Shown here piece by piece: positions 1-19,980 of a DNA stretch of 64,000 bases (its first letter is position 1; the number at the start of each line of letters is the position of its first letter). The notes under the pieces are model-generated. The model saw only the letters and a list, made by a program, of their open reading frames with translations, was not told the DNA's origin and searched no databases. The translations under genes and the position numbers were made by a program. Source of the DNA: Alcanivorax sp. (GTDB lineage Bacteria > Pseudomonadota > Gammaproteobacteria > Pseudomonadales > Alcanivoracaceae); contig JAIUME010000002.1 in the NCBI GenBank assembly GCA_022565695.1, positions 1-64,000 on the forward strand, written 5' to 3'.

Positions 1-86
1 GGACTGCCTTTCAGGACCCGCCGTGGACCCATCCATGGGGGCTTGTGTTCGACATCCTTGTCTCACACAGTCCTGAAAGGCAGTCC
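1..86. repeat. Palindromic intergenic repeat, copy with 17-bp arms
   Basis: Positions 1-17 and 70-86 are perfect reverse complements, enclosing a 52-nt centre that contains the motif catccatgg. The element lies downstream of csiV, beside a second palindrome at 194-304 of the same architecture (long outer arms, catccatgg-type core). It may begin left of the window edge. I see no coding capacity. It could act as a terminator or processing signal for the csiV transcript, or be a mobile palindromic unit; sequence alone does not decide. Confidence 0.75.
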
Positions 87-193
87 CCGCCCCCGTGGGC
101 CGTCACGTTCAGCAGTATCAACTACTCCCAGCCAACTACCGGTTTGGTTCTTACTGAGAATCCGATACCTGCCGAACCTTGAATCTCGCACCT

Positions 194-304
194 GCGTTGA
201 GGTGGGGTACGTCCTGGAGGGACCTCTTTGGCCATGGATGGCCAAAGCGCGAGCGCCCAGGGATGGCTTGAGCGGTCCCGGAAGGACGTACCCCACCTCA
301 ACGC
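194..304. repeat. Palindromic intergenic repeat with 21-bp arms and nested hairpins
   Basis: Positions 194-214 and 284-304 are perfect 21-nt reverse complements. Nested inside are a 6-bp stem (219-224 with 274-279) and a 9-bp stem with a 2-nt centre (227-235 with 238-246). The whole can fold into one long branched hairpin. It sits 45 bp downstream of the csiV stop codon. The architecture resembles interspersed palindromic repeats of marine gammaproteobacteria; copy number in this genome cannot be seen from here. Confidence 0.8.
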
Positions 305-349
305 TTCTTGCTGGAGGGTGACCCGCTCGCCTATCCCGCGAGAAACCCT

Positions 350-1060
350 TTAGCGCGTTACCTTGACGATGATGCCGAACAGAGGGTGGTCGATGTAGTG
401 GAGTTCGTCGCTGCGCATGCGGCGGCTCTGGTCGATGTTGACGTAGTAGCGCTGGTTGTCTCTGTCCACCCGGGTAAACCACAGATTCGGGTCGATGTGC
501 AGAAAGCGCGACACGCTCAGGTTCAGGGTGCCTTGCAGTTCGTACTGGGGTGAGCCGTCCAGGGGAGGCGCTTCATCGTAAGTGTCGGCATCACTATCGC
601 TGAAACTGCTGTCACTGAAACTGCTGCGATACAGCGCCGGGTCGGGTGGCAGTTCGCGCCCGCCCTGGATATGCACCGGCAAGGTCTGGTCCCGTTCGCG
701 CATGGGCTGGCGCCAGCTGCTGTGGAACAGGCTGCGGTACTCGCCGCTGCGCTCCATTTGCTGGCGCATGTTGGTTAACGACAGGCGGTCATCCGGGAGT
801 GCCTGCCAGGCGCCCTGGCGCAGGGCCTGGCGGTCCGGGTTGCTGGCATTGTCGGGCAGGGAGGCGCCGCTGGTGCGGTAGCGCACGTGGTCGCGCGGGT
901 ATTCCGGGCGGACATCCAGGCGCCAGTGCTCGCCGCCGGTGTTCTGGGTGCGGGCAAATACCAGCATTTCTACCTGAAACCAGCGCTCTTCTGCGTGTGC
1001 CTGAGCGGGCATGAATGCCAGTGGTGCCAGGACTGCCAGCAGCATGATCCATCGTGTCAT
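350..1060 (-). CDS. csiV: CsiV family periplasmic protein
   Basis: A 236-residue protein with an N-terminal signal peptide (hydrophobic run after MTRW, cleavage likely after residue 23, AQAHA) followed by the conserved start of the CsiV family (ERWFQVEMLVFAR). The family, first characterised as a septal peptidoglycan-binding partner of CrvA in Vibrio, is often encoded beside mfd in pseudomonads, and here it follows mfd by 70 bp on the same strand, so the two are probably cotranscribed. The middle (about residues 135-160) is low-complexity and rich in Ser and Asp. The start is set at the ATG at 1060 because GGAG lies 6 nt upstream; an in-frame TTG lies one codon earlier. A role in this organism is inferred from family membership only. 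Confidence 0.8.
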   Translation of the reverse strand: MTRWIMLLAVLAPLAFMPAQAHAEERWFQVEMLVFARTQNTGGEHWRLDVRPEYPRDHVRYRTSGASLPDNASNPDRQALRQGAWQALPDDRLSLTNMRQQMERSGEYRSLFHSSWRQPMRERDQTLPVHIQGGRELPPDPALYRSSFSDSSFSDSDADTYDEAPPLDGSPQYELQGTLNLSVSRFLHIDPNLWFTRVDRDNQRYYVNIDQSRRMRSDELHYIDHPLFGIIVKVTR

Positions 1061-1130
1061 CAAAGGCTCCTTGTCGCCTTCTGGGCCTGATGTCAGGCCG
1101 GTTGGTGTGGCATCTTCTGTCTCGTCGGAG

Positions 1131-4100
1131 TCAGGCGAGGCTGTCCAGCAAGTCTTCCACTGCGGCGAAGCGCTCTTCCTCGGTATCCGCCTCCAGGGTG
1201 AAGCGCAGCATGCTGGCCCCTTGCAGGCGATATCGGTTCGGGCCTGATTGTACCAGTTTCACCAGGCGTAGCGGATCAATCGCGGTGCGTTCGGAGAATT
1301 CCAGCCGGCCGCTTTCACTGCCGGCGTCCACGCGGCTGATGCCCAGCGTCTCGGCGCGCTGGCGCAGGGCTGTGACGCGGAACAGGTTTTTCACCTGCCG
1401 GGGCAGGGTGCCGAAGCGGTCGATCATTTCGACCTTGAGTTCATCCAGTTGTTCACCGGTGCGGCAACTGGCGATGCGCTTGTACAGGCCGAGGCGGGTA
1501 AAGACGTCGGGCAGGTAGTCCTCGGGGATCAGTGCTGGCACCCGCAGGTTGATGTCCGGGCCGCCGGAGAGGGGTTTGGCGGTATCGGGCTGTTCGCCTC
1601 GCTTGAGGGCCGCCACGGCCTGCTCCAGCATGTCCATGTACAGGGAGAAGCCGATGGACTCGATATGGCCGTGCTGTTCTTCACCGAGCAGGGCGCCTGC
1701 GCCGCGGATCTCCAGATCGTGGCTGGCGAGCATGAAGCCGGCGCCCAGGTCCGAGGCCTGTTCGATGGCTTCCAGGCGTTTCACCGCGTCCCGGGTCATG
1801 GCCTTGGGGTGGGGGGTCAGCAGGAATGCGTAGGCCTGATGATGGGATCGGCCGACGCGGCCGCGCAGCTGGTGCAGTTGCGCCAGGCCGAACTTGTCAG
1901 CTCGCTCGATGATGATGGTATTGGCCGAGGGCACGTCAATGCCGGTTTCGATAATGGTGGTGCACAGCAGCACGTTGAAGCGCCGGTGGTAGAAGTCGGA
2001 CATGATCTGCTCGAGATCACGTTCGCGCATCTGGCCGTGGGCAATGCCGACCCGGGCATCGGGGACCAACTCGCGGATTTCTTCTGCCGAGCGCGCCATG
2101 CTGTCGATGTCGTTGTGCAGGAAGTAGACCTGGCCACCGCGGAGCAGCTCCCGCAGGATGGCTTCCTTGATGGCCAGCGGGTTCTTCTGCTGGACGAAGG
2201 TTTTTACGGACAGGCGCTTTTCAGGCGGCGTGGCAATGATGGAGATGTCGCGCATGCCGGACATGGCCATGTTCAGCGTCCGGGGAATCGGTGTGGCGGT
2301 CAGGGTCAGGATATCGGCCTCTGCCCGCAGTTCTTTCAGGCGCTCTTTGTGGCGCACGCCGAAGCGGTGTTCTTCATCGACGATCACCAGGCCCAGATCA
2401 CGGAATTTTACCGACTCCTGCAGCAGCTGATGGGTGCCGACCACGATATCCACGTTGCCGGTTTCCAGGCGTCGCAGGACGTCGGTTTTTTCTTTCTGGC
2501 TGCGGAAGCGGCTCAGGACTTCGATATTGACGGGCCAGTCGGCGAACCGGTCACTGAAGGATTCGTAGTGCTGCTGTGCAAGCAGGGTGGTGGGCACCAG
2601 GATGGCGACCTGGGTGTTGTTCTGCACAGCAACAAACGCCGCGCGCATGGCCACTTCGGTCTTGCCGAAACCCACATCGCCGCACACCAGTCGGTCGGTG
2701 GGGCGATTGGCCTGCATGTCACTGAGCACCGCATTGATCGCTGCCTGCTGGTCAGCTGTCTCTTCAAACGGGAAGCCGCTGGAAAACCGGTTGTACTCGT
2801 CCTCCGGCAGGGTGAAGGCGCGCCCCTCTCTGGCTTCCCGGCGGGCGTAGGTATTCAGCAGTTCGGCGGCCACGTCGTGAATCTTTTCGGCGGCGCGCTG
2901 GCGCGCGCGGCTCCACTGATCCGAGCCCAGACGGGTCAGTGGCGCATGCTCCGGATCTCCGCCGCCGTAGCGGCTGATCAGGTGCAGGTTCGAGACGGGC
3001 AGGTAGATCTTGTCGCCGCCGGCATATTCCAGCAGCAGGAATTCGTGGGCCTGGCCGTCCACGGTCATGTGGGTCAGGCCGCGATAGCGCCCGACGCCGT
3101 GGTCGATGTGGACCACCGGGCTGCCGGACACCAGCTCGCCGAGGGAGCGAAAGGCTTGATCGGCGGTGGTCTCCTGGCCGCTTTTGCGCCGCCGGCGCTG
3201 CATGATGCGCTCGCCGTAGAGCTGGCTCTCTGCGATCACCAGGTAGCCGGCTTGGTGTGCGAGGAAGCCCTGATCCAGTTCGCCGACGGTCAGTGACCAG
3301 GGGGCTTCGCCGTCGAGGAAGGCGTGCCAGCCGCTGACCAGCTCGGGCTGCAGCCCCTGCTTCTGCATCAGTTCCAGCAGCGCTTCCCGTCGGCCCGGCG
3401 TTTCCGCACAGACCAGCACGCGCAGGCCGGGGTGTTGTTCCGGCACGTTGACCAGCGGCGCAAAGGGGTTGGTGCTGCGGTCTGCCGGGGCTTGTGGCGG
3501 TGGCGAAAAATCGAAGCTGATGCCGTCACGCGCCTTGTCTTTGCTGGCGGTGGCGGTGGTGTGGTCGGCCAGGCGCGCTCGGGGATGGCTGCGCAGGTGC
3601 CGGTTGAACTCGTCCACGGGGAGGAACAGCTCTGCCGGGGCCAGAATCGGTCGGCGGATATCATGCCGCCGATCTTCGTGACGGGCGCTGATTTCCTGCC
3701 AGAAATGTTCGGCCGCTGCGTCACAGCCCGCCAGCTCCACCAGGCGCACATCCTCTGGCAGGTAATCGAACAGTGTTGCCATGGTGTCAAAAAACAGCGG
3801 CAGGTAGTACTCCAGCCCCGGGCTGGCAATGCCTTCGGAGACATCCTGGTAAAGACTGCATTGCCGGTGGTCCACGTCGAAGCGCTCGCGGAAGCGATTG
3901 CGGAACGCGGCGATACCATCGGTGCTCAACGGGTACTCGGCGGCGGGCAGCAGGGTGATGTGCTGAACCTGATCCACAGAGCGCTGTGTCTCGGCGTCAA
4001 ACAGCCGCAGGGATTCGATGTCGTCATCAAACAGCTCGATGCGGAACGGCTGGCTGGCGCCCATGGGAAAGATATCCATGATGGCGCCGCGCACGGCGAA

Positions 4101-4595
4101 CTCGCCATGCTCGTAGACGCTGTCGCGCTGGCGGTAGCCGCAGGCGGCGAGGCGTGAGCGGGTGGCATCCATGTCGAATCGCTCACCGACCTTCAACGCA
4201 AAGCTGCTGCCACTGATCTGCATGCGCGGCGCGAGCCGCTGCATGAGGGTGTTGACCGGTGCGATCAATACGCCGCGCTGACTTTGTGGCAGCCGGTGCA
4301 AGACTTCTATCCTTTCGCTGATGATGTCCTGGTGCGGGGAGAACAGGTCGTAGGGCAAGGTCTCCCAGTCCGGGAACAGCATCACCGGCACATCGGTGCC
4401 GTCGAGATAAAAGGCAAGGCTGTCCGCCAGGTGCTGAGCGGTACTGCTGTCCGGCGTCATGACCAGCAGCAGCTGTGTTTCACGCTGGGCCAGTGCCGCC
4501 AGAACGACCGCCAGACTGCCGCTGTCCAGGCCAAACCAGTTGCGGAACCGGTCGGCCCCGGTGGGGAACATCTCTGCGGAAGGAAGAAGCGTCAT
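1131..4595 (-). CDS. mfd: Transcription-repair coupling factor Mfd
   Basis: At 1154 residues this is full length for Mfd, the DNA translocase that removes RNA polymerase stalled at lesions and recruits UvrA. The N-terminal part is the UvrB-like region (LFPDWETLPYD near residue 95). The RNA polymerase-interacting region precedes a RecG-like translocase with Walker A GDVGFGKTEV (Lys 645), a DEEH box (740-743) and the motif TATPIPRTL. The C terminus holds the TRCF domain. The start ATG at 4595 faces the divergent ATP-grasp gene across a 194-bp spacer. csiV follows. No frameshift or missing motif was seen. Confidence 0.98.
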   Translation of the reverse strand: MTLLPSAEMFPTGADRFRNWFGLDSGSLAVVLAALAQRETQLLLVMTPDSSTAQHLADSLAFYLDGTDVPVMLFPDWETLPYDLFSPHQDIISERIEVLHRLPQSQRGVLIAPVNTLMQRLAPRMQISGSSFALKVGERFDMDATRSRLAACGYRQRDSVYEHGEFAVRGAIMDIFPMGASQPFRIELFDDDIESLRLFDAETQRSVDQVQHITLLPAAEYPLSTDGIAAFRNRFRERFDVDHRQCSLYQDVSEGIASPGLEYYLPLFFDTMATLFDYLPEDVRLVELAGCDAAAEHFWQEISARHEDRRHDIRRPILAPAELFLPVDEFNRHLRSHPRARLADHTTATASKDKARDGISFDFSPPPQAPADRSTNPFAPLVNVPEQHPGLRVLVCAETPGRREALLELMQKQGLQPELVSGWHAFLDGEAPWSLTVGELDQGFLAHQAGYLVIAESQLYGERIMQRRRRKSGQETTADQAFRSLGELVSGSPVVHIDHGVGRYRGLTHMTVDGQAHEFLLLEYAGGDKIYLPVSNLHLISRYGGGDPEHAPLTRLGSDQWSRARQRAAEKIHDVAAELLNTYARREAREGRAFTLPEDEYNRFSSGFPFEETADQQAAINAVLSDMQANRPTDRLVCGDVGFGKTEVAMRAAFVAVQNNTQVAILVPTTLLAQQHYESFSDRFADWPVNIEVLSRFRSQKEKTDVLRRLETGNVDIVVGTHQLLQESVKFRDLGLVIVDEEHRFGVRHKERLKELRAEADILTLTATPIPRTLNMAMSGMRDISIIATPPEKRLSVKTFVQQKNPLAIKEAILRELLRGGQVYFLHNDIDSMARSAEEIRELVPDARVGIAHGQMRERDLEQIMSDFYHRRFNVLLCTTIIETGIDVPSANTIIIERADKFGLAQLHQLRGRVGRSHHQAYAFLLTPHPKAMTRDAVKRLEAIEQASDLGAGFMLASHDLEIRGAGALLGEEQHGHIESIGFSLYMDMLEQAVAALKRGEQPDTAKPLSGGPDINLRVPALIPEDYLPDVFTRLGLYKRIASCRTGEQLDELKVEMIDRFGTLPRQVKNLFRVTALRQRAETLGISRVDAGSESGRLEFSERTAIDPLRLVKLVQSGPNRYRLQGASMLRFTLEADTEEERFAAVEDLLDSLA

Positions 4596-4789
4596 TGGCT
4601 CATGAAATTATCTGAATCAAGGGGGGCGCATTGTAGCGGAAACGGGTCATGAAAGCGCCAGTTTGTCAGTTGTCAAATCGGGGTCAAGGTGTGGTCGCTG
4701 CCTGAGTCGTGTATGGTACGTAGGCTCTTGACGGCCTCGCTGGTCTCAACGCTGGCGAGTAATGCACTGCCAACGTATGGAGGCAGCAT

Positions 4790-6013
4790 ATGAAGAAAGA
4801 TCCGAACAAGGGCTATGTCGCTCTACTGGGCTGGAGCCTGAGCGCGGTGGAAGCCGCCGAATCCTTCGATCGCCGTTATGTCGTCGTAGCCCCCGACTGG
4901 GCTGAAGAATACTGTCGCCAACACGACATCCCCTATGTCCCCTGGAATTTCGAGCGACTCAATGATCGCTCCATGGAAATTGCCCAGACTCTCAAGGATA
5001 TGGGTGTGAATGTCGCCATACCGCTGTTTGAAGAAACGGTGGAGTGGGCCGGCGCTATCAACTCCGTACTGCTGAATAACCCGCGTTTGCTGGGCCAGGC
5101 GATGCTGATGCGGGATAAATCCCTGATGAAGCGGCGCGCTCAGCTGGGCGGTATTCGTGTCGGGATTTTCGAAGAAGCCCACGACCGCGACGATGTGATT
5201 CGTTTTCTCAAACGCGTCAACCAGACCCTGCTGAAGCTTGATGGTGATCCCAACGATCCGATTCATCTCAAGGCGTTTGATAAAGCGGGTTGCCTGGGTC
5301 ACCGCGTGATCCGTACGCCGGACGAAGTGGATGCGATTCCCGATGAGGAATTCCCGTCACTGATGGAGTCACATCTTGATGGCTGGGAGTTTGCTGTCGA
5401 GGCCTGGATTCATAACGGCAAGATTCGCTTCCTGAATATTTCTGAATATGTCTCTCTCGGCTACTCCGTTTTCGTGCCGGCATCGCCGGAACTGGAGAGC
5501 TATCGTCCGCAAATCCGGGCGCAGATTGAAAAATTGGTTAAAACCTTTGATATCGAGTTTGGCTTCATTCATCCGGAGTACTTCGTCACCAGTGACAGCG
5601 AGATGTATTTCGGTGAGGTGGCTTATCGCCCGCCCGGGTTCAAGGTGTTCGAGCTGCTTGAGCGGGTCTATGGCTTTAATGCCTACCATGCGCTGATCCT
5701 GTCGTTTGATCCAAAGACCACGGAGGAGGAAATCACCGGCTTCTTCCCGAAAGAGGTCGAGGACGCAGACGGTTATGCCGGTTGCTTCGGCGTCTATCCG
5801 CGCCGTCGCGTGGTCAGCCGTCTCGAAATTCCGGCGGAGACAGAAGATCATCCGTACTTCGAGTCCCACGAACTGACGCCGCCGCTGCAGGAAACAGTGA
5901 CCAAGCGCACAGCGTTCGGCACACACTGGGGGTTGATGTATTTCCGGGGGGAAGATGCGGAGATACTGAAGACGCTGCTCAAGCATCAGGAAGAACTCGA
6001 CTTCTATGTTTGA
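4790..6013 (+). CDS. ATP-grasp domain protein of unknown substrate
   Basis: A 407-residue cytosolic protein with the layout of an ATP-grasp carbon-nitrogen or carbon-sulfur ligase: an N-terminal Rossmann-like part (residues 1-110), a central nucleotide-binding part (LMRDKSLMKRRAQLGG near 108-123) and a C-terminal acidic motif GEVAYRPPG (Glu 276) equivalent to the metal-binding ExN/A region; the Ala at the Asn position is also seen in PurK-like enzymes. No fused acceptor domain is visible. GGAGG lies 6 nt before the ATG, partly inside a weak hairpin (CTGCC/GGCAG, 4767-4786). The next gene, 64 bp downstream, encodes a papain-like protein, so the two probably act together. Substrate is unknown; peptide-bond or amide formation is a family-based inference. 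Confidence 0.8.
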   Translation: MKKDPNKGYVALLGWSLSAVEAAESFDRRYVVVAPDWAEEYCRQHDIPYVPWNFERLNDRSMEIAQTLKDMGVNVAIPLFEETVEWAGAINSVLLNNPRLLGQAMLMRDKSLMKRRAQLGGIRVGIFEEAHDRDDVIRFLKRVNQTLLKLDGDPNDPIHLKAFDKAGCLGHRVIRTPDEVDAIPDEEFPSLMESHLDGWEFAVEAWIHNGKIRFLNISEYVSLGYSVFVPASPELESYRPQIRAQIEKLVKTFDIEFGFIHPEYFVTSDSEMYFGEVAYRPPGFKVFELLERVYGFNAYHALILSFDPKTTEEEITGFFPKEVEDADGYAGCFGVYPRRRVVSRLEIPAETEDHPYFESHELTPPLQETVTKRTAFGTHWGLMYFRGEDAEILKTLLKHQEELDFYV

Positions 6014-6034
6014 ACAGGCATGTTTGAACAGGCA
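6007..6034 (+). repeat. 14-bp tandem duplication over the ATP-grasp stop codon
   Basis: The unit TGTTTGAACAGGCA occurs twice head to tail (6007-6020 and 6021-6034). The first copy contains the TGA stop of the ATP-grasp gene. It looks like a replication-slippage product. A 7-bp hairpin (6045-6064) without a T-run follows. Confidence 0.8.
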
Positions 6035-6065
6035 GGAAAAGAGACCGGGCCGGTAAAGGCCCGGC

Positions 6066-6095
6066 GACGGGGAAAAGGTGGACGGGGAAAAGGTG
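6066..6095 (+). repeat. 15-bp tandem duplication of a ribosome-binding site
   Basis: The unit GACGGGGAAAAGGTG is present twice (6066-6080 and 6081-6095). Each copy carries a purine-rich Shine-Dalgarno-like stretch and ends in an in-frame GTG, so the duplication multiplies possible start sites (GTG 6078, GTG 6093, ATG 6105) for the following gene. Confidence 0.8.
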
Positions 6096-8174
6096 GATGG
6101 TGTGATGAGCTCTGATGACACCGATGAAGTACAGTCAAAGGCAGAACCGGACCTGCAGGACATAGCGCAAAAGCGTGATGCATTGCTGGTCAGGCTGGAC
6201 GAGGCGCTGACTGCGATGGGGCGTGCACCGGCCTTTGCCAAGCCTGGCAAGTTGCCCCGCATTCTGGATATTGCCCGTCGCGTGATGTTCCTGGAGGGAG
6301 GCTGTGCTGCAGTGGCAGCGCGTGCTGAAGTGCTGGAACAGGCGGGCGTGTTTGCGGGATCGGACTGGAGCACGCCGCATATACTGATTCCCTCACTGAG
6401 CCGTGTCGCCCTGCGCAGTGCCGAGGCGGACCTGGTGGTGATCGAGTCGCTGAGCGAATTGCGCTTGCTGGCCGTATCCCAGGGCTGGTTTCTGCACCCG
6501 CTGATGTCCTCTGAGCAGGCCCACCATTATCTGACCCAGGTTCTGGCGCTGAATCTCGAACTGCTGTTCTCCACCCCGAGTGAAGCCGAGCGTGCCCAGC
6601 AGGGACGTCTGGCCCAGGTGCCGCGAAACCTGCTGCGCTATCTGGCGGAGACCATTGGCTACGAGCATGTGATCGATCAGTTGATTGACGAGATCTGGCG
6701 TATCCAGCAGCAACGACCGATTCAGGTAGATACGGTCAAGCACATGATCACGCAGATCGCGGTGTGTCGCGGCAGTGGCGATATCAACTGGGGCAGCAGC
6801 GGGCAGGGCGCCGATCGTCTGGTCAGCAGTTTATATGGCCCGACCCAGGCCACACGGGAAGATCCGGGGCTGGAGGAATATCAGCGCCGACTGTCCAGCA
6901 TGGACGCGACGGCGTTGCAGTACGAAGCCACGGGTTTCGCGCGGGCCATGCACGATACCGGCCTGGTGTCGCCGTACCATGCGGTGATGCTGCGTCACCT
7001 GCCTGAACAGGGCGATCATCTTCTGGCGGAGTGCCTGGGATTGTCAGCCACCGGGCGCGATTGTCTGTTGTGCTACCGGGAGCTGGTGCACGCCCTCGTT
7101 GCCGCCGCCGTGCATCCGGGCACGCCTCAAGCTGTGTATGGGCTGGCCTTGATGCTGGAACGGGGCATTTTGTATCAGGCGCCGGTTGCGCCAGCCCTGT
7201 GGCGTCAGTTGAGTCTGTCGCTGTGTGCGGCTGCAGAACAGCGTCTGCTGCGCACCTTTGGTGACGGGGTGCCGCCAGCGTCCCGTTTGCTGGAAGGTGT
7301 GCTGTGCATGATGGGTTTGCCGCTGGGGATAGGGCAGGGCAATAACCCGACCTGCCAATCCGCACGTGCGCTATCCATGTGGGCCCACAATGACCCCGAT
7401 TATCTTTTGCAGATGGTGGTCTGGGCCGCTCGGGATGACGAGATCATCATGCACTTCGAGGGGCAGCCGATCTCTTCCCGGGCCAGCGTTGGCGGGGTGG
7501 CAACAGAGGTGCCCGTGGATCTGGATCCGGTGTCGCTGCTGGTGGTGCCGCATCTGGACCGTATCTATGCAGAAATGGGGCGCCGTTGCGTTGGCCGGGA
7601 GGGCGATCCGCACCGTTGGGTCAATCCGGAATTTCATGGCTGGTGGTCGGGCAGGGGTTTCAGTATCAACGTCGATGTGGCCACCGGTCAGTTGCACGAT
7701 CTGGAAGGTTTTGTGCGACATTTCTATGCGGCGTACCACCCTTTTTACAATGGCAATCAGCCCCTGATTCATCCGCAGCCTGCGGGCATTGCCGTGACGG
7801 ACAGTGCAGCGCGATTTATCGGTTGGCACGCCATTACGCTATTGCGGGTCACACTGGACCCGGCAGGCATCATGCGCGCCTATTTCTACAATCCCAATAA
7901 TGACAGTGGCCAGGATTGGGGAGACGGCGTTGTCGTCAGTACGGCAGGGCATGGTGAGCATTTTGGTGAGGCATCACTGCCGTTCGAACAGTTCGCCTCG
8001 CGGCTCTATATCTATCACTACGACCCGCTGGAGTACGGTGAGCCTGCGCAGATATCGCGGGAGGAACTGGATCAGGTGATCGGTTATGTGCATCGCAGCT
8101 GGGGCGCAGAGAGAGTCCCCGCCGGTGCACTGCAGGCCGAGCAGGCTGACGGCGGTGCCGGCGCCCCGGAATGA
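6078..8174 (+). CDS. Uncharacterised protein with papain-like Q-C-H-N pattern
   Basis: I do not recognise this 698-residue protein as a named family. Residues 1-400 look mostly helical, with no signal peptide. The C-terminal third shows a cysteine-peptidase-like pattern: Gln 420 and Cys 426 in GQGNNPTCQS (the same six-residue spacing as papain Gln19-Cys25), His 584 in GWHAITLLRV, and Asn 605 in YFYNPNNDSG, followed by DWGDG, which recalls the papain NSWG..WG.G segment. It may therefore be a protease, transglutaminase or amidase-like enzyme; fold and activity are inference. It follows the ATP-grasp gene by 64 bp. The start is uncertain because the ribosome-binding site is duplicated: GTG 6078, GTG 6093 or ATG 6105 (10 nt after AGGTGG, 689 residues). 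Confidence 0.75.
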   Translation: MDGEKVDGVMSSDDTDEVQSKAEPDLQDIAQKRDALLVRLDEALTAMGRAPAFAKPGKLPRILDIARRVMFLEGGCAAVAARAEVLEQAGVFAGSDWSTPHILIPSLSRVALRSAEADLVVIESLSELRLLAVSQGWFLHPLMSSEQAHHYLTQVLALNLELLFSTPSEAERAQQGRLAQVPRNLLRYLAETIGYEHVIDQLIDEIWRIQQQRPIQVDTVKHMITQIAVCRGSGDINWGSSGQGADRLVSSLYGPTQATREDPGLEEYQRRLSSMDATALQYEATGFARAMHDTGLVSPYHAVMLRHLPEQGDHLLAECLGLSATGRDCLLCYRELVHALVAAAVHPGTPQAVYGLALMLERGILYQAPVAPALWRQLSLSLCAAAEQRLLRTFGDGVPPASRLLEGVLCMMGLPLGIGQGNNPTCQSARALSMWAHNDPDYLLQMVVWAARDDEIIMHFEGQPISSRASVGGVATEVPVDLDPVSLLVVPHLDRIYAEMGRRCVGREGDPHRWVNPEFHGWWSGRGFSINVDVATGQLHDLEGFVRHFYAAYHPFYNGNQPLIHPQPAGIAVTDSAARFIGWHAITLLRVTLDPAGIMRAYFYNPNNDSGQDWGDGVVVSTAGHGEHFGEASLPFEQFASRLYIYHYDPLEYGEPAQISREELDQVIGYVHRSWGAERVPAGALQAEQADGGAGAPE

Positions 8175-8198
8175 CGGCTACTGGAAAGATGGTATGAT
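8171..8198 (+). promoter_or_regulatory. Candidate sigma-70 promoter of tesB
   Basis: ATGACG (8171-8176), a 16-nt spacer and TATGAT (8193-8198), 42 nt before the tesB start. The -10 is good and the -35 matches 4 of 6. Confidence 0.4.
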
Positions 8199-8239
8199 GC
8201 GCGCTCTGTTTATTCCGCGAAAATCCCGGGAAGTGTGTC

Positions 8240-9115
8240 ATGAATGAAGTAGTCAGCGACCTGCTGGAAGTCATCCGGCTTGAACAGCTTGAGCAGAATC
8301 TGTTTCGTGGCCAGAGCCGCGATACCGGGCAGCGCAGCATCTTCGGCGGGCTGGTGGCCGGGCAGGCGCTGATGGCGGCGGCGCGCACCGTGCCGGAGGA
8401 CCGGCCGGTGCATTCCCTGCATTCCTATTTCCTGCGTCCGGGTGATTTCACCATCCCCATTATCTACGACGTGGACCGCATCCGGGATGGCAAGAGCTTT
8501 ACCACCCGGCGTGTCACCGCGATCCAGCACGGGCGGGCGATCTTCAGTCTTGAGGCATCGTTCCAGCTGCAGGAAGACGGCGTCGAACATCAGGCTGACA
8601 TGCCGGATGTACCGGCCCCGGAGACGCTGGAAACCGATCGTGTCTTGCGGGAGCGTTTCGCCCACCGCATTCCCGAGAACTTCCGCGAGGCGTTTCTGGC
8701 CGAGCGGCCGGTGGAGTTCCGCCCGGTAAAGCCGGCAAACTCCTTCGACGCCGAGCCCCAGGATCCGTCACGCATGGTCTGGTTCCGCATCGTGGATACG
8801 CTGGACGTGGATGTGGCCACGCACCGGGCACTGCTGGCGTTCTGCTCGGATTTCGGCCTGCTGGGCACCTCGATGCTGCCCCATGGCATGAATTTCTTTC
8901 AGCCCCATGTGCAGTCAGCCAGTATCGACCATGCGATGTGGTTTCATCGGCCGTTCCGGGTTGATGAATGGCTGCTCTACAGCACTTTCAGCCCCTCGGC
9001 GTCCGGGGCGCGCGGCATGAACCTCGGCTACATCTACCGTGCAGACGGCGTGCTGGCGGCAACGGTGGCACAGGAAGGCCTGATGCGCCTGCGACCCCAG
9101 GAGCCGCGCACCTGA
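8240..9115 (+). CDS. tesB: Acyl-CoA thioesterase II
   Basis: This 291-residue protein has the double hot-dog fold length and landmarks of TesB, which hydrolyses medium- and long-chain acyl-CoA to free fatty acid and CoA in the cytosol. Visible family features are FRGQSRDTGQRSIFGGLVAGQ near residue 25 (G-Q-F-G-G type), HSLHSYFLRPGD near 57-68, a C-terminal SIDHAMWFHRPFRVDEWLLY block holding the catalytic Asp, and AQEGLMRLR near the end with the catalytic Gln. A putative promoter lies just upstream. The following uracil-DNA-glycosylase-like gene starts 5 bp after the stop, so the two appear cotranscribed although functionally unrelated. Confidence 0.93.
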   Translation: MNEVVSDLLEVIRLEQLEQNLFRGQSRDTGQRSIFGGLVAGQALMAAARTVPEDRPVHSLHSYFLRPGDFTIPIIYDVDRIRDGKSFTTRRVTAIQHGRAIFSLEASFQLQEDGVEHQADMPDVPAPETLETDRVLRERFAHRIPENFREAFLAERPVEFRPVKPANSFDAEPQDPSRMVWFRIVDTLDVDVATHRALLAFCSDFGLLGTSMLPHGMNFFQPHVQSASIDHAMWFHRPFRVDEWLLYSTFSPSASGARGMNLGYIYRADGVLAATVAQEGLMRLRPQEPRT

Positions 9116-9120
9116 TTCCG

Positions 9121-9708
9121 GTGCTGGATACGCTGTTGCATGAGGCGCGCAGTTGCCGGGTGTGTGAGGCGGTGCTGCCGCTCGGGCCCAGACCGGTGGT
9201 CCGGGCCAGCGCCACGGCGCGCGTGCTGATCATCGGGCAGGCGCCCGGCACGCGGGTGCATGCCACAGGCATCCCCTGGAACGACCCGTCTGGTGAGCGG
9301 CTGCGTGATTGGCTGGCCGTCAGCCCGGATATCTTCTACGACGTTGGTCGTATCGCCATCATGCCCATGGGGTTCTGTTACCCGGGGCGTGGCCGGGGAG
9401 GGGATATGCCGCCACGGCCGGAGTGCGCGCCGCTGTGGCATCCGCCGTTGCTGGCCGCGATGCCGGCGGTGGAGCTGGTGCTATTGGTGGGGCAGTATGC
9501 CCAGAAGCGCTATTTGCAGGGTGGTCAGGCATCGCTGACCGAGAATGTCCGGCCCTTTCAGGACCCGGCAGTGGCCAGCGCGGCGCACTGGTTTCCACTG
9601 CCGCACCCCAGCCCCCGGAATACGCGCTGGCTGCAGCAACGCCCCTGGTTCGAGGCGCAGGTGGTGCCATTGTTGCGGCAGCGATTGCGGAGCGTGCTGG
9701 GGCAATAA
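9121..9708 (+). CDS. Uracil-DNA glycosylase superfamily protein
   Basis: With the GTG at 9121 the product is 195 residues; upstream sequence in this frame overlaps tesB and is rejected. Motif I reads GQAPGTRVHATGIPWNDPSG (residues 39-58) and motif II reads HPSPRNT, marking the uracil-DNA glycosylase fold. Four cysteines (12, 15, 86, 102) have the pattern of the [4Fe-4S] cluster of family-4/5 enzymes. The likely role is excision of uracil or another damaged base. Motif I lacks the Glu of typical family 4 (GEAPG), so substrate range could differ, or it may be one of the poorly studied UDG-like branches. The start is not certain: the ribosome-binding site would lie inside the tesB end. Confidence 0.8.
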   Translation: MLDTLLHEARSCRVCEAVLPLGPRPVVRASATARVLIIGQAPGTRVHATGIPWNDPSGERLRDWLAVSPDIFYDVGRIAIMPMGFCYPGRGRGGDMPPRPECAPLWHPPLLAAMPAVELVLLVGQYAQKRYLQGGQASLTENVRPFQDPAVASAAHWFPLPHPSPRNTRWLQQRPWFEAQVVPLLRQRLRSVLGQ

Positions 9709-9722
9709 CCCTCCTTTCCCGG

Positions 9723-9751
9723 TGGATAAGCGGGCGCCAAAGCGCTAGAAT
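9723..9751 (+). promoter_or_regulatory. Candidate sigma-70 promoter of gap
   Basis: TGGATA (9723-9728), 17-nt spacer, TAGAAT (9746-9751), 39 nt upstream of the GTG start. Four of six -35 bases and five of six -10 bases match consensus. Confidence 0.4.
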
Positions 9752-9790
9752 GCGCGCCCCGAAACACCTGTCACCAGAGGGCCAGATCTC

Positions 9791-11230
9791 GTGAATAAAC
9801 TGGAAGACCACTTCGGACGCTGGAAGAACCGGGAAGAAATTGCTGAAGCCATGATCCCGATGGTCGGCAAGCTGTATCGTGAACGCAATGTCACCACTAC
9901 AGTGTACAGCCGTTCACTCGTTAACCGCTCCGTCATTCAGATTCTCAAGGCCCATCGCTTCGTCAAGCAGATCGAAGACGCTGAGCTGTCTGTTGTGGAC
10001 ACTTTCCCGATCCTGCAGGAAGTGAACAAGCTGGATCTGGGCCCCTGCCGCATTGATGTGGGCAAGCTGGCCGTCAACTGGAAACAGGATAATCAGGGAC
10101 TGTCCATCGAGGAATACGTCCGCACCCAGTTGTCCGATGCCACGGAAAACAAGCTCGATCGTCCGGAACACAAGGATGTCGTGCTGTATGGCTTCGGTCG
10201 TATCGGCCGCATTCTGGCCCGCCTGCTGATCGAGAAGGTCGGCAGTGGCGATGGCCTGCGCCTGAAAGCGATTGTGGTGCGTGAATCCGGCAAGGGTGAC
10301 CTGCAGAAACGTGCCAGCCTGCTGCGCCGCGATTCGGTGCACGGGCCTTTCTCCGGCACCATCGCCGTGGATGAGGAAGAGAATGCCATTATCGCCAATG
10401 GCAATTTCATCAAGATCATCTATGCCAATGACCCCAAGACCATTGATTATTCGGCCTACGGGATCCGCAATGCGGTGTTGATCGACAACACTGGCATGTG
10501 GCGTGATCGCGAGGGTCTGAGCCAGCACCTGGGCTGCAAGGGCATCAGCCGTGTGATCCTGACGGCGCCGGGCAAGGGCGACCTCAAGAATATCGTGCAT
10601 GGCGTCAACAACGCCCTGATCGACGATAGCGACAGCATCATTTCGGCGGCCAGCTGCACCACCAACGCCATTGTGCCGCCGCTGAAGGCGCTCAACGACA
10701 AGTTCGGTATTGTCGTCGGTCACGTGGAAACCGTGCACTCCTACACCAATGACCAGAACTTGCTGGATAACTTCCACAAGGGGCCGCGCCGTGGCCGCGC
10801 CGCGCCGCTGAACATGGTCATTACCGAAACCGGTGCTGCCACCGCGGCAGCCAAGGCGCTGCCGGAGCTGGCAGGCAAGCTCTCCGGTAATTCCATCCGG
10901 GTGCCGACGCCGAACGTATCGCTGGCGATTCTCAATCTCACCCTTGAGAAAGAGACCAATCTGGAAGAGCTGAACGAGTATCTGCGCTGGGTATCGCTGC
11001 ATTCACCGCTGCAGCGCCAGATCGATTTCATCAGTTCCCCGGATGCGGTATCCACCGACTTCGTGGGCGCCCGGCACGCGTCGGTGATCGACGCCGAAGC
11101 GACCATCGTGAACGGCAAGCATTGCGTCCTGTATGTCTGGTATGACAACGAATTCGGTTACAGCTGCCAGGTGGTACGTATCCTGCAGCAGATTTCGGGT
11201 GTCGAGTATCCGGCGTACCCGAAGGACTGA
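9791..11230 (+). CDS. gap: Glyceraldehyde-3-phosphate dehydrogenase, N-terminally extended
   Basis: At 479 residues this is about 130 longer than ordinary GAPDH. The extra N-terminal part (to about residue 125) precedes a standard NAD(P)-binding fold (YGFGRIGRI) and the catalytic motif SCTTN with Cys 289. Similar long forms are known in Pseudomonas, where the gene lies between mfd and nqrA as it nearly does here. It interconverts glyceraldehyde 3-phosphate and 1,3-bisphosphoglycerate; with no other glycolytic gene nearby, a gluconeogenic role is possible but inferred. Translation starts at GTG 9791, with GAGGG about 9 nt upstream. A strong terminator follows at 11239-11265. Confidence 0.95.
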   Translation: MNKLEDHFGRWKNREEIAEAMIPMVGKLYRERNVTTTVYSRSLVNRSVIQILKAHRFVKQIEDAELSVVDTFPILQEVNKLDLGPCRIDVGKLAVNWKQDNQGLSIEEYVRTQLSDATENKLDRPEHKDVVLYGFGRIGRILARLLIEKVGSGDGLRLKAIVVRESGKGDLQKRASLLRRDSVHGPFSGTIAVDEEENAIIANGNFIKIIYANDPKTIDYSAYGIRNAVLIDNTGMWRDREGLSQHLGCKGISRVILTAPGKGDLKNIVHGVNNALIDDSDSIISAASCTTNAIVPPLKALNDKFGIVVGHVETVHSYTNDQNLLDNFHKGPRRGRAAPLNMVITETGAATAAAKALPELAGKLSGNSIRVPTPNVSLAILNLTLEKETNLEELNEYLRWVSLHSPLQRQIDFISSPDAVSTDFVGARHASVIDAEATIVNGKHCVLYVWYDNEFGYSCQVVRILQQISGVEYPAYPKD

Positions 11231-11238
11231 TCGACTGC

Positions 11239-11265
11239 AAAAGGCCTGCTTGACGCGGGCCTTTT
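11239..11265 (+). terminator. Rho-independent terminator of gap
   Basis: Stem AAAAGGCC / GGCCTTTT with an 11-nt loop, followed by further T-rich sequence, 9 nt after the gap stop codon. Confidence 0.85.
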
Positions 11266-11329
11266 GTTGTCGAGTGTTGAGGTTGAGGCCGAGTGTTGAG
11301 GCCGACTGGCGCTGACGGCGCGCTGTCCC

Positions 11330-11335
11330 TATAAT
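11330..11335 (+). promoter_or_regulatory. Candidate -10 box of the nqr operon
   Basis: A perfect TATAAT lies 117 nt before nqrA, in the only gap ahead of the operon. The -35 at 17-nt spacing (TGGCGC, 11307-11312) is poor, so an activator or another sigma factor may be needed. Confidence 0.4.
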
Positions 11336-11451
11336 GGCGCGCGCCGGCGTTCTGCCGGACCAGCACGATGCAAGTATCGGTTTTCAAAGGTGTTTGCAGG
11401 GCCCTACCCGGGCAATACCTATCTCCAGTGTCAGAACGTGGGCGAGAGGCT

Positions 11452-12798
11452 ATGATCAAAATCAAACGGGGGCTTGACCTGCCAATCACGGGCGCACCGC
11501 GCCAGGTGATCGAGGACGGGCCGCGCGTACGCACCGTGGCCGTGCTTGGCGGCGACTACATGGGTATGAAACCCACCATGGAAGTGCGTGAAGGGGATCG
11601 GGTTCGACAGGGCCAGGTCATCTTCACCGACAAAAAGACCGAGGGCGTGAAATACACCGCTCCGGCATCCGGCACCATCCTGGCTGTCAATCGCGGCCAG
11701 AAGCGCGTGCTGCAATCCGTGGTCATCGAGCTGGAAGGGGATGACGACGCTGTCACCTTCGCTGCCCATAATGAGGGCGCGCTGGCCAGCCTGGGCCGCG
11801 ATGCGGTGCAGGAACAGCTGATCGAATCCGGGCAATGGACGGCGCTGCGTACACGCCCGTTCGGCAAGGTCCCGGCCCCCGGTACGGTGCCCAATTCGAT
11901 TTTCGTGTCAGTGATGGACACCAACCCGCTGGCGACCAACCCGGATCTGGTGATCACCGAGCAGCTGCAGGCCTTCCGCAATGGCCTGACCGTGTTGTCT
12001 CGCCTGACCGATGGCCCCGTCTGGGTCTGCCGCGCACCGTCCTCCGAGTTGCCGTCTTTCGCCGGTGGCCAGGTGCGTGAAGAAACCTTCGCGGGTCCGC
12101 ATCCGGCGGGCAATACCGGCACGCATATTCACTTCCTTGATCCGGTCGGCATGAAGAAGACCGTATGGTCCGTGGGCTACCAGGACGTGATTGCCATCGG
12201 CAAACTGTTCACCACCGGCCGCCTGTACATGGATCGGGTTGTGGCGTTGGCAGGCCCCCAGGTACAGAATCCGCGCCTGCTGCGTACCCGTGTGGGTGCG
12301 AGCCTGGAAGATCTGACCGAAGGGCAGTTGAAAAGCGGTGAAAACCGTATCGTGTCAGGCTCTCTGTTCAACGGCCATAATGCCCGTGGTCCGCTGGCCT
12401 TCCTCGGGCGCCTGGCCAATCAGGTGACCGTGTTGCTGGAAGGGCGTGAGCGCGAGCTGTTCGGTTACATTTCACCGGGCTTTAACCGCCATTCTGTTAT
12501 GAACATTTACTTGTCCAAGCTGATGCGGGGCAAGTTGTTCAATTTCACTACGACGACCAACGGCAGTGAGCGTGCGATGGTGCCAATCGGCAACTATGAG
12601 CAGGTCATGCCGCTGGACGTGCTCCCCACTCAGCTTTTGCGTTCCCTGATCGTCAGCGATACGGATACCGCTCAGGCGTTGGGTGCGCTGGAACTGGTGG
12701 AAGAAGACCTGGCCCTGTGCACCTACGTTTGCGTAGGCAAGTACGAGTACGGTCCGATTCTTCGTGACAACCTCACTCGCATTGAGCTGGAGGGCTGA
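11452..12798 (+). CDS. nqrA: Na+-translocating NADH:quinone reductase subunit A
   Basis: NqrA is the cytoplasmic-side, membrane-associated subunit of the sodium-pumping respiratory complex that oxidises NADH, reduces ubiquinone and exports Na+. The 448-residue product begins with the family hallmark [16 protein letters not shown] and continues through a biotin-lipoyl-like barrel ([18 protein letters not shown] near residues 43-60) to the RnfC-like body. An open frame extends 84 nt further upstream, but the ATG at 11452 matches the family N terminus and has GAGAGG just before it. It is the first gene of an eight-gene operon. Confidence 0.97.
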
Positions 12799-12800
12799 CC

Positions 12801-14051
12801 ATGGGCTTACGCGCAACGATCGACAAGAATATAGCACCGCATTTCCACGAGGGCGGCAAGCTGCAGAAGTATTACGTCTTTTACGAGATGTTCGATACCA
12901 TGCTGTACAGCCCCTCCGATACCACGCGCTCCACCTCCCATGTGCGGGACGGTATCGACCTCAAGCGTGTGATGATGACCGTCTTTTTCGCCACATTTCC
13001 GGCGATTCTGTTCGGCATCTACAACACCGGTTATCAGGCCAACCTGCAAATCACCGAGTTCGGTTTCAGTGCTATTGAAGGCTGGCGTACCGCATTGGTT
13101 GGCGGGCTCACCGGCTTTGACCACACCAGTTTCTTCGCTAACTTCCTGCACGGCCTGGTGTACTACGTACCCATCGTGATTGTGGTGTATGGCACAGGCT
13201 TCCTCTGGGAAGGTCTGTTCGCGTGGAAGCGCGGCCACGAGGTGAACGAAGGTTTCTTCGTCACGGGTATCCTGTTCACCCTGATTCTGCCGCCGGCGAT
13301 TCCGCTGTGGCAGGTGTTCCTCGGGGTGTCGTTCGGTATCGTGATCGGCAAGGAAGTGTTTGGCGGCACCGGCAAGAACTTCCTCAACCCGGCGCTGGTC
13401 GGCCGGGCATTCCTGTTCTTCGCTTACCCGGCACAGATGTCCGGTGACGCCGTCTGGACTGCGGTCGACAACTTCAGCGGCGCGACGCCACTGTCGCTGG
13501 CTGCCAGCGGTGACCTGAACTTCGCCGCCGGCCTGACCGAGAACGCGGTGGCGGCAGGTCAGTCAGTGGACATCACCTGGATGCACACCTTCCTTGGCGG
13601 CATTCAGGGCTCGATCGGTGAGACATCGACCCTGGCGATCATGCTCGGCGCGGCATTGTTGCTGTTCACCAAGATTGCCTCCTGGCGGATCATGGCCGGT
13701 GTTCTGGTCGGCATGGTGGCCCTGGCCTCCCTGCTTAATGCGGTGGGCAGCGATACCAACGCCATGTTTGCCATGCCCTGGTACTGGCATCTGACGGTGG
13801 GTTCTGCGGCATTCGGTCTGGTGTTCATGGCGACCGACCCGGTATCTGCGGCAATGACCAATACCGGCAAGTGGGTCTTCGGCATATTGATCGGGTTGAT
13901 GATCATCATGATCCGGGTCATCAATCCGGCCTTCCCTGAAGGTGTGATGCTGGCAATCCTGTTCGGTAATCTGTGCGCTCCGCTGATCGATTACTTTGTG
14001 GTGCAGTCGAATATCAAGCGTCGCCAGCGGCGTACGGCAGAGGTGGTGTAA
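12801..14051 (+). CDS. nqrB: Na+-translocating NADH:quinone reductase subunit B
   Basis: This 416-residue polytopic membrane subunit carries a covalent FMN and riboflavin and contributes to the sodium path. The flavinylation motif SGATPL is intact, with Thr 229 as the FMN attachment residue. About ten hydrophobic segments are visible from residue 50 on. The ATG is 2 nt after the nqrA stop, and the stop codon overlaps the nqrC start by one base (TAATG), which supports translational coupling. Confidence 0.97.
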   Translation: MGLRATIDKNIAPHFHEGGKLQKYYVFYEMFDTMLYSPSDTTRSTSHVRDGIDLKRVMMTVFFATFPAILFGIYNTGYQANLQITEFGFSAIEGWRTALVGGLTGFDHTSFFANFLHGLVYYVPIVIVVYGTGFLWEGLFAWKRGHEVNEGFFVTGILFTLILPPAIPLWQVFLGVSFGIVIGKEVFGGTGKNFLNPALVGRAFLFFAYPAQMSGDAVWTAVDNFSGATPLSLAASGDLNFAAGLTENAVAAGQSVDITWMHTFLGGIQGSIGETSTLAIMLGAALLLFTKIASWRIMAGVLVGMVALASLLNAVGSDTNAMFAMPWYWHLTVGSAAFGLVFMATDPVSAAMTNTGKWVFGILIGLMIIMIRVINPAFPEGVMLAILFGNLCAPLIDYFVVQSNIKRRQRRTAEVV

Positions 14052-14833
14052 TGGCAGCGAACAAAGAGAGTGTAGGCAGAACCCTGCTGGTTGCCTTTCT
14101 GGTGTGTCTGGTGTGTGCGGTTGTGGTTTCCACTGCTGCAGTGACCCTGCGGCCCACCCAGGAAGCAAACCGGGTGCTGGATCGCCAGATCAATATTCTG
14201 CGGGCTGCGGACCGTTACGAGCGCGGCATCAATGTGCAGGAAGAGTTCGACAAGATCGAGCGTCGCTTTGTTGATATCGAAACCGGTGAGTATGTGGACA
14301 TGCCGGAAGACTACGATCAGCGCCGCGCTTCCCGCGATGATGACATGAGCCGCCGTCTTCGGGGCGATCAGGATATTGCATCCATTCGCCGCCAGGCCAA
14401 AGTGGCCGAGGTTTATCTGGTGCTGGACGATGAAGGGGAGGTGACTCGCCTGATTCTGCCCATGCACGGTTACGGCCTCTGGTCCACCATGTATGGCTTC
14501 CTGTCCCTTGAGATGGACATCAACACCATTGCGGGTGTGGTGTTCTACGAGCACGGTGAAACACCTGGCCTCGGCGGTGAAATCGATAATCCCCGCTGGC
14601 GCGCCAACTGGGAAGGCAAGCAGCTTTTTGATGACGAAGGCCGTGTGGCGTTCGAGATCATCAAGGGCAGCGTGGACAGCGGTGCCCAGGGTGCCGAGTA
14701 CAAGGTCGACGGCCTCTCCGGTGCAACACTGACCGCAAATGGCGTGACCAACGCGGTGCGCTTCTGGATGGGGGACAATGGCTTCGGCCCGTACCTCGAC
14801 CGTCTCAGATCTGACAGCGCACAGCTGAATTAA
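14051..14833 (+). CDS. nqrC: Na+-translocating NADH:quinone reductase subunit C
   Basis: NqrC is a 260-residue subunit with one N-terminal membrane helix (residues 12-33) and a periplasmic FMN-binding domain. The covalent attachment motif [12 protein letters not shown] is present with Thr 226 as the modified residue, the target of the ApbE transferase encoded downstream. The start was chosen at the ATG overlapping the nqrB stop by one base, which gives the usual N terminus; the open frame extends further back inside nqrB. It passes electrons between the NqrD/E iron site and the NqrB flavin. Confidence 0.96.
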
Positions 14834-14843
14834 GGAGACAGAC

Positions 14844-15512
14844 ATGGCCGAAGCAAAGAAAAAGGACATCCTGTTCCAGCCGATTTTCGATAATAACCCT
14901 ATCGCATTGCAGATTCTGGGTATCTGTTCTGCGCTGGCGGTTACCACGCAGATGACGACGACGCTGACAATGTGTGTCGCGTTGACCGTCGTACTGGTGT
15001 TTTCGAACTTCTTCGTGAGTGTTATTCGTAGTCAGATCCCGTCCAGCATCCGCATCATCGTGCAGATGACCATCATTGCCTCGCTGGTAATTGTGGTGGA
15101 TCAGTTCCTGCGTGCTTACGCCTACGACATCAGCCGGCAGCTGTCGGTGTTTGTCGGTCTGATCATCACCAACTGTATCGTCATGGGGCGTGCTGAAGCA
15201 TTCGCCATGAAGAACCCGCCAGGGGTGTCCTTCATTGATGGCCTGGGTAACGCGCTGGGCTACAGTGTCGTACTGCTGGCGGTGGGCTTCGCTCGCGAAC
15301 TGCTGGGTTCAGGCTCGCTGTTCGGTATCGAGATCATGCCGCTGATCACAGAAGGTGGCTGGTACTACAGCAATGGCCTGATGTTGTTGCCGCCGAGTGC
15401 CTTCTTCCTGATTGGCCTGTTCATCTGGGCGCTGCGCGCCTGGAAGCCCGAGCAGGTGGAAGAAGAGCAGTTCAAGATGGCGCCAAACTCACGCACCAGC
15501 GACGTATTCTGA
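14844..15512 (+). CDS. nqrD: Na+-translocating NADH:quinone reductase subunit D
   Basis: A 222-residue integral membrane subunit with six hydrophobic helices. Together with NqrE it forms the inverted-repeat pair that holds the intramembrane iron-sulfur centre. The family signature [17 protein letters not shown] (around residues 111-127) contains the conserved cysteine. AAGGAG precedes the ATG. It lies 10 bp after nqrC and 11 bp before nqrE. Confidence 0.96.
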
Positions 15513-15523
15513 GGGGATGAGAC

Positions 15524-16144
15524 GTGTTTGAACATTATCTGAGTCTGTTTGTCCGCGCCATCTTCGTCGAGAACATGGCACTGGCCTTCTTCCTGGGCAT
15601 GTGTACTTTCCTGGCGGTGTCCAAGAAAGTGCAGACTGCAATTGGTCTGGGTATCGCGGTAATTGTGGTGCTGGCCATCACGGTGCCGGTCAACAATCTC
15701 ATCCTCAGTCACCTGCTCTCCGAGAATGCGCTGGAGTGGACGGGTATCGAGGCGCTGAGCACGCTGGATCTGCGGTTCCTGGGTCTGCTGAGCTATATTG
15801 GTGTGATTGCGGCACTGGTGCAGATTCTCGAGATGACTCTCGATAAGTATGTGCCATCGCTGTACAACGCGCTGGGCATCTTTCTCCCTCTGATCACAGT
15901 GAACTGTGCGATCCTTGGCGCCAGTCTGTTCATGGTCGAGCGCGACTATACTTTCAACGAGAGTGTCGTTTTCGGTCTCGGGGCGGGTGTCGGCTGGGCG
16001 CTCGCGATCGCGTTGCTGGCGGCCATTCGCGAAAAGCTGAAATACAGTGACGTGCCCGATGGTCTCAAGGGTCTGGGCATTACATTCATTGTAGTGGGCC
16101 TGATGTCACTGGGCTTCATGTCATTCTCCGGCGTACAGCTGTAA
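15524..16144 (+). CDS. nqrE: Na+-translocating NADH:quinone reductase subunit E
   Basis: A 206-residue, six-helix membrane subunit paralogous to NqrD. The N terminus [20 protein letters not shown] is the NqrE hallmark, and [10 protein letters not shown] carries the conserved cysteine of the intramembrane Fe-S site. Translation begins at GTG 15524 behind GAGGGGATGAGAC. The length matches the family (about 198-206). Confidence 0.96.
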
Positions 16145-16164
16145 TCGCGGAGTAGAGGAGAGCG

Positions 16165-17397: not shown

Positions 17398-17400
17398 TGA

Positions 17401-18489: not shown

Positions 18490-18517
18490 CCTTCAGGATA
18501 GCCTACAGGAGCGCCCT

Positions 18518-18775: not shown

Positions 18776-18809
18776 TCTTGTGTGCGGCGTACAGGGAGTA
18801 AACGACTGA

Positions 18810-19979: not shown

Positions 19980-19980
19980 T

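Follow-up and report, generated by a model that had tools for sequence, protein, structure and literature searches.

A putative ATP-grasp ligase and a candidate papain-like protein encoded as a two-gene unit in Alcanivorax and other bacteria

The stretch of DNA analysed here (the window) comprises 64,000 nucleotides of an Alcanivorax sp. contig (JAIUME010000002.1, positions 1 to 64,000). It harbors two adjacent genes, named P1 and P2, of which the first encodes a putative ATP-grasp carboxylate-amine ligase and the second a 698-residue protein of an unnamed family. Both open reading frames (ORFs) are present, 64 bp apart, as described in the original prediction, a note made from the letters of the window alone, which had seen in them a candidate for an undescribed two-enzyme system, one that would form an amide bond and cleave or transfer it. 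In the genome samples analysed P1 and P2 are an obligate unit. The features of the locus are the following, confidence of the structural models being given as the predicted local distance difference test (pLDDT).

4790..6013, plus strand: P1, ATP-grasp carboxylate-amine ligase of 407 residues by sequence matches to its family and to ligase relatives; intact ORF
6014..6077, no strand: P1–P2 gap of 64 bp, holding an 8-bp G+C hairpin
6078..8174, plus strand: P2, 698 residues, family unnamed; begins with GTG, no significant library match
6150..7316, plus strand: N-terminal all-helical region of P2, residues 25-413, as predicted by AlphaFold, which shows nothing but helices, at pLDDT mostly 60-96 per block
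7254..8105, plus strand: C-terminal proposed papain-like catalytic region of P2, residues 393-676, from the predicted order of elements, the motif and residue conservation
7335..7337, plus strand: Q420, proposed oxyanion-hole glutamine; invariant (130/130), with a Gln-Cys spacing of 6 that is the same in 4/4 references
7353..7355, plus strand: C426, putative nucleophile close to the N-terminal end of a predicted helix; invariant (130/130), pLDDT <50 in both models
7827..7829, plus strand: H584, putative catalytic histidine within a predicted strand; invariant (130/130), pLDDT <50 in both models
7890..7892, plus strand: N605, putative third residue of the catalytic set, immediately following the next predicted strand; invariant (130/130)

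The association of the two genes was surveyed in three overlapping samples, consisting of 293 evenly drawn genomes of the order, 57 relatives and 299 genomes of the phylum. P2 was found in 40 of the 293 order genomes and P1, at an expect value (E) of <1e-200, in exactly those 40, four further genomes giving weak ATP-grasp matches only (24-34% identity). The same 19 of the 57 relatives carry both genes, one P1 being clipped by a contig end (E 4e-117), and so do the same 8 of the 299 phylum genomes, where ten others gave weak P1 matches only (E 2e-7 to 6e-4). Within the genus the distribution is patchy, four of seven genomes having the pair when the window's own is counted. Fisher p values for co-occurrence were 3e-50 in the order sample and 2e-15 and 7e-16 in the samples of relatives and of the phylum, values that are too small because relatedness is ignored and the samples overlap. 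The conserved co-occurrence that the original prediction had named as support for a system is therefore borne out, strong P1 matches and P2 occupying exactly the same genomes in all three samples.

The two genes are also physically linked. P1 adjoins P2 by coordinates in 36 of the 40 order genomes, the exceptions being G487, G505, G541 and G583, and a P1 fragment lies beside P2 in G505 and G583, the latter not being an independent case since its coordinates are the same as those of the genome of locus L077. Among 80 named loci, which are the best 80 of 581 P2 matches, P1 adjoins P2 in 76 (in L075 with P1 clipped by the contig end), and each of the four exceptions, L014, L072, L077 and L081, has an intact P1 elsewhere in its genome. 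A C-terminal fragment of P1 is found directly before P2 at L072:5849-5968 (E 3e-9) and L077:5857-5976 (E 1e-6), and a doubtful one at L081:5837-5971 (E 0.12); at L014 the search detects no P1 fragment before P2. The intact distant P1 copies in the genomes of L072, L077 and L081 are 74-75% identical, and it seems that in these genomes the linked P1 has been replaced by an unlinked one. Across the 99 loci with both genes, some of them from the same genome, the genes are co-directional in 91 and divergent in 8. Because there are no exceptions to the co-occurrence, and because an unlinked P1 is present where the linked one is missing, we argue strongly that P1 and P2 depend on each other functionally.

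Both genes are under strong purifying selection. The ratios of nonsynonymous to synonymous substitution (dN/dS) were 0.019 for P1 and 0.061 for P2 in comparison with L002 (NqrB 0.017, GAPDH 0.010, Mfd 0.060), and 0.035 and 0.088, respectively, in comparison with L003 (NqrB 0.060, GAPDH 0.088), with the synonymous sites of P1 and P2 near saturation in these estimates.

The original prediction had no name for P2, and no family model in Pfam, NCBIfam or PADLOC matches it. A search of PDB sequences likewise gave nothing significant (best E 2.1 with the single sequence and 0.086 with a profile), and a Pfam scan of 32 P2 members revealed no consistent family; the matches to PqqD, DUF2891, PriC and four other Pfam families were rejected as chance, being found in at most 2 of the 32 members with a best E of 0.011. 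A P2 profile search of the 299 genomes recovered full-length members in 8 and only short matches (E at least 0.06) in 7 others, its candidates having been taken from a loose first look so that distant members could be missed. No P2 was found in the phages and viral contigs searched, and the anti-phage defence models of PADLOC matched neither P1 nor P2 up to E 1. One record of the plasmid collection holds a P2 copy of 70% identity, and a P2 gene lies on a 1.83-Mb replicon of Halomonas sp. PA16-9 that is recorded as a plasmid (L120, NZ_CP040452.1 1207970-1221993).

The clues to the nature of P2 come from its C-terminal part. Q420, C426, H584 and N605 lie at the positions given in the original prediction, H584 within the sequence GWHAITLLRV at 582 and N605 within YNPNND at 604, with DWGDG at 613. 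All four are present without exception in the 130 distinct P2 sequences of 51% identity and up (152 matches minus duplicates, the window's own counted; the P2 of L079 was left out of the P2 alignments), and Cys426 and His584, poor conservation of which had been named as telling against a papain-like enzyme, are thus kept throughout. P2 and all four reference domains, which were fetched with papain and calpain family models, share the motif QG-x4-C...HA...N[PS] in this order and at papain-like distances. None of 496 background ORFs (250 residues or longer) contains it, and 6 of 20,000 shuffled versions of the C-terminal part of P2 do, figures to be read knowing that the pattern was written after P2 had been seen and that the background is made up of ORFs called mechanically in the loci, with redundancy and some spurious members. 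Loosening the motif (Q-x5-C, H[AG], N) raises the numbers to 2/496 ORFs and 597/20,000 shuffles, and Q-x5-C alone is present in 48 of the 496 ORFs; a stricter version, with WG after the Asn, is found in three of the four references, no background ORF and one of the 20,000 shuffles.

AlphaFold models were obtained for full-length P2 (mean pLDDT 64) and for its C-terminal part (mean pLDDT 53, predicted template modelling score 0.59). In both, C426 falls close to where a helix begins, H584 belongs to a strand, and N605 comes immediately behind the following strand; the predicted placement of C426 agrees with the description of the cysteine of the papain-like fold in PMC10318531. The poor quality of the models is probably due to shallow alignments, whose rows are 70-91% identical. 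Staphopain (rank 26) and calpain (rank 47) appear in the Foldseek list for the C-terminal model at E 7-9 and were not counted as evidence. The papain fold proposed in the original prediction therefore fits in the order of its elements but lacks a confident model or a significant fold match. Taking motif, conservation and predicted element order together, we regard P2 as probably papain-like.

P1 is matched by PF13535 (ATP-grasp_4) at E 4.6e-4 and 20.3 bits, for a curated cut-off of 27, and all 33 P1 members match NCBIfam PRK07206 at E<=0.1 (best E 6.2e-8), the P1 of the window scoring 11.8 bits against a cut-off of 302. A profile made from the 33-row P1 alignment and run against PDB sequences found the L-amino acid ligases 4wd3 (E 9.5e-4) and 3vot (E 5.6e-3), structures that the single sequence reached at E 0.094 only, and its match to D-Ala ligases was insignificant (E ~0.5). 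K161, E263, E276 and R280 are invariant in 117/117 distinct P1 sequences, the window's own counted, and the last three align with 4wd3; from the usual roles in ATP-grasp enzymes, we take K161 to be the ATP-binding lysine and the acidic residues to be Mg-binding. A more distant P1 clade (L124:6297-6377, L125:6930-7010, L126 and L128) has an extra ~28 N-terminal residues, ending ...GTETPKDPNKGY. Judged by sequence comparison, the ATP-grasp chemistry of P1 and the papain-like chemistry of P2 are supported but not shown.

P1 starts with an ATG just downstream of a GGAGG, and the starts of homologues suggest that the true start of P2 may be at the GTG/ATG at 6102/6105. The G+C-rich hairpin between the genes (6044-6065, 8 bp) is terminator-like on the minus strand only, the plus strand having no T run, and such terminator-like sites are not more frequent than in shuffles. 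On one side P1 is flanked by what we take from its sequence to be mfd (minus strand, start 4595). P2 is followed by a presumed acyl-CoA thioesterase-like gene (8240-9115) and then by GAPDH-like and Nqr-like genes, likewise named from sequence. An Rfam scan of positions 1-20000 gave zero matches. Of the named relatives found, Alcanivorax limicola is the closest, with 97% identity for P1 and 89% for P2.

Two gene families (families 2 and 3) that recur near the pair, in 55 and 52 of 81 stretches, respectively, were rejected as parts of the system, being confined to Halomonadaceae-type loci. With crude ORF calling, the syntenic genes of the Halomonadaceae are missing from the loci of Alcanivorax, Saccharospirillum, Pseudomonas neustonica and Ectothiorhodospiraceae, and the conserved unit therefore consists of two genes. 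When the upstream DNA of seven loci was compared, similarity was confined to the three closest (the window, L002 and L003), so that there is no conserved short ORF upstream that might encode the precursor of a graspetide or another ribosomally synthesised and post-translationally modified peptide, other places not having been searched. The named records, again the best 80 of 581, belong mostly to Halomonas and the genera split from it, the others being from Alcanivorax, Chromohalobacter, Saccharospirillum, Pseudomonas neustonica, some Ectothiorhodospiraceae and other metagenome-assembled genomes. The named host genera are mostly marine or halophilic, a bias that may be an effect of sampling the best matches.

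Several copies of P2 are present in the genomes of one family (f20), some of them without an adjoining P1, and the unpaired copies retain all four of the residues Q420, C426, H584 and N605. One of them (L121:6035-9841) lies near genes resembling GCS2 (23.3 bits for a cut-off of 21) and AstE/AspA (23.8 bits, short of the cut-off of 25), homologues of which also accompany the unpaired P2 of L131:5847-10001. A gene for a metallo-beta-lactamase fold is found near the unpaired copies of L121 and L131 as well (by family scan in L121 only), and the whole looks like another amide-metabolism context. Elsewhere, ABC transporter genes come after an unpaired P2 (L132:5931-9958) together with a solute-binding protein, polyamine-like by eye, and the neighbours include a fatty acid desaturase in L123 and a match to an M17 peptidase in L122. 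No theme recurs across genomes among the neighbours of unpaired P2 copies, and they serve as leads only.

The best explanation of these findings, which we hold at roughly even confidence, is that P1 forms an amide and that P2, as a papain-like cysteine enzyme, hydrolyses or transfers it. P1 would activate a carboxylate as an acyl phosphate in an ATP-driven step and join the acyl group to an amine, the product most likely being a dipeptide-like or isopeptide amide. The thiol of C426 in P2 would then attack this amide with the help of H584, N605 and an oxyanion hole that includes Q420, after which the acyl-enzyme could either be hydrolysed or hand its acyl group to another amine. Within the cell a conjugate would thus be formed and taken apart again, or matured. 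That P2 acts on the product of P1 we infer from the obligate pairing, and the direction and substrate proposed for the reaction are conjectural as well; a small molecule is favored over a protein as substrate because P1 is related to dipeptide-forming ligases. Of the two-enzyme system envisaged in the original prediction, the co-occurrence and the residues are supported, while its chemistry is still presumed and its fold unconfirmed.

Co-occurrence of P1 and P2 is also in keeping with a biosynthetic pathway in which P1 makes an amide intermediate, P2 builds the final metabolite as an acyl- or peptidyl-transferase and nothing is broken. Papain-like folds do act as transferases, acetyltransferases and transglutaminases being placed in Peptidase_CA by PMC10318531, and papain-like transacylases of the BtrH family, in operons sometimes with ATP-grasp genes, are described in PMC2922099. 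However, outside the Halomonadaceae synteny our crude ORF calling revealed no conserved additional biosynthetic gene or exporter, and we consider such a pathway rather unlikely. If, instead, P1 added an amino acid to the C-terminus or a side chain of a protein and P2 removed it, in the manner of tubulin tyrosine ligase and vasohibin, one could understand the strong conservation of P1 (dN/dS versus L002 near that of NqrB) and see in the large helical N-terminal region of P2 a means of binding a protein; vasohibin, moreover, is among the papain-like enzymes according to PMC10318531. The solved structures closest to P1, though, carry the name of L-amino acid ligases, enzymes that act on free amino acids, and the patchy presence (40/293) would be odd for a housekeeping protein target, which makes protein modification quite unlikely. 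As for the two genes being chance neighbors without a functional link, the identical genome sets in the three samples, a linkage that survives rearrangement and the unlinked P1 present where the linked copy has decayed render this extremely improbable.

Several results nevertheless weigh against a papain-like P2 acting with an ATP-grasp P1. In both AlphaFold models C426 and H584 sit in segments with pLDDT <50. Foldseek searches with the two models found nothing at E<=0.001, their best matches having E 0.19 and 1.7, and hhalign comparisons of P2 with four single papain/calpain (clan-CA) domains gave probabilities of 0.1-1.4, like those of the controls, which were five column-shuffled ones run against the calpain domain. 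Invariance by itself is not specific either, 131 columns being invariant in the 32-row P2 alignment. Conserved Cys and His residues would then be expected in any case, and this, together with the lack of a significant fold or profile match, is what one would see if P2 were not papain-like at all and its motifs were coincidental features of a highly conserved scaffold or regulator of P1. That the ordered, papain-spaced motif is absent from the background ORFs and so rare among shuffles, and that the predicted element order fits a papain-like fold, argue against such a coincidence, which we think unlikely. On the side of P1, the match to L-amino acid ligases is weak (E ~1e-3 over ~120 residues) and the Pfam score is under its curated cut-off. 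As to the pairing, the unlinked genomes G487 and G541 have no P1 remnant beside P2 at the search threshold, and extra P2 copies without a P1 neighbor (L101, L108-L111) occur in genomes with P1 elsewhere, so P2 may have roles beyond P1. Nor was a substrate, a transporter or a third gene conserved across genera found in the compared neighborhoods.

Going beyond the explanation in which P2 hydrolyses or transfers the amide made by P1, one could tentatively imagine, though we think it less likely than not, that P2 founds a new clan-CA family which, with its dedicated ATP-grasp ligase, carries out an undescribed cycle of reversible amidation on a metabolite or protein within the cell, mainly in marine and halophilic gammaproteobacteria. 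P2 would later have been duplicated onto other amide conjugates, as in the copies beside GCS2-like and AstE/AspA-like genes.

To regard P1–P2 as an undescribed system, as the original prediction suggested, is defensible though unproven. P2 falls outside all the family models searched, and literature title searches turned up no name for the pair; an earlier description is possible, and the likeliest place for one, the 2009 amidoligase survey of Iyer and colleagues, lay outside the coverage of these searches. A family of ~700-residue proteins that has no model in the libraries searched, is under strong selection and never occurs without P1 in three samples points to real undescribed biochemistry and not to a stray hypothetical protein.

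Among known enzymes, the L-amino acid ligases resemble P1 by profile over residues ~184-305, where 4wd3 has E-x-A-x-R and 3vot E-x-G-x-R in place of the E276-V-A278-Y-R280 of P1, a site at which D-Ala ligases carry Asn; they differ in that the N-terminal half of P1 has no significant match. L-amino acid ligases use free amino acids, and we know of no obligate P2-like partner for them. Papain (C1) and calpain (C2) of clan CA share with P2 the elements QG-x4-C, HA and N-[PS], in the same order and spacing range in 4/4 references, but there is no detectable profile similarity, P2 has a long helical N-terminal region and its fold is predicted only. Tubulin tyrosine ligase/vasohibin and RimK/RimB each combine an ATP-grasp ligase and a peptidase that works in the reverse direction; unlike the small molecule favored for P1–P2, their substrates are proteins, and the comparison with P1–P2 was by family scans only. 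The operons surveyed by Iyer, Aravind and colleagues, which contain ATP-grasp ligases and papain-like transacylases, have ATP-grasp genes near papain-like transferases as P1–P2 does, but are, according to PMC2922099, larger multi-gene biosynthetic operons, whereas here only two genes are conserved.

The closest logic is that of glutathionylspermidine synthetase/amidase, in which ATP-dependent amide formation is paired, within one protein, with a cysteine amidase that reverses it. The E. coli enzyme has a CHAP domain (PMC10318531), and the GSP_synth and CHAP models of Pfam matched neither P1 nor any of the 32 P2 members. P1 and P2 differ from it also in being two separate proteins. Should P2 reverse the reaction of P1 or transfer its product, the pair would be a separate-protein version of the glutathionylspermidine logic.

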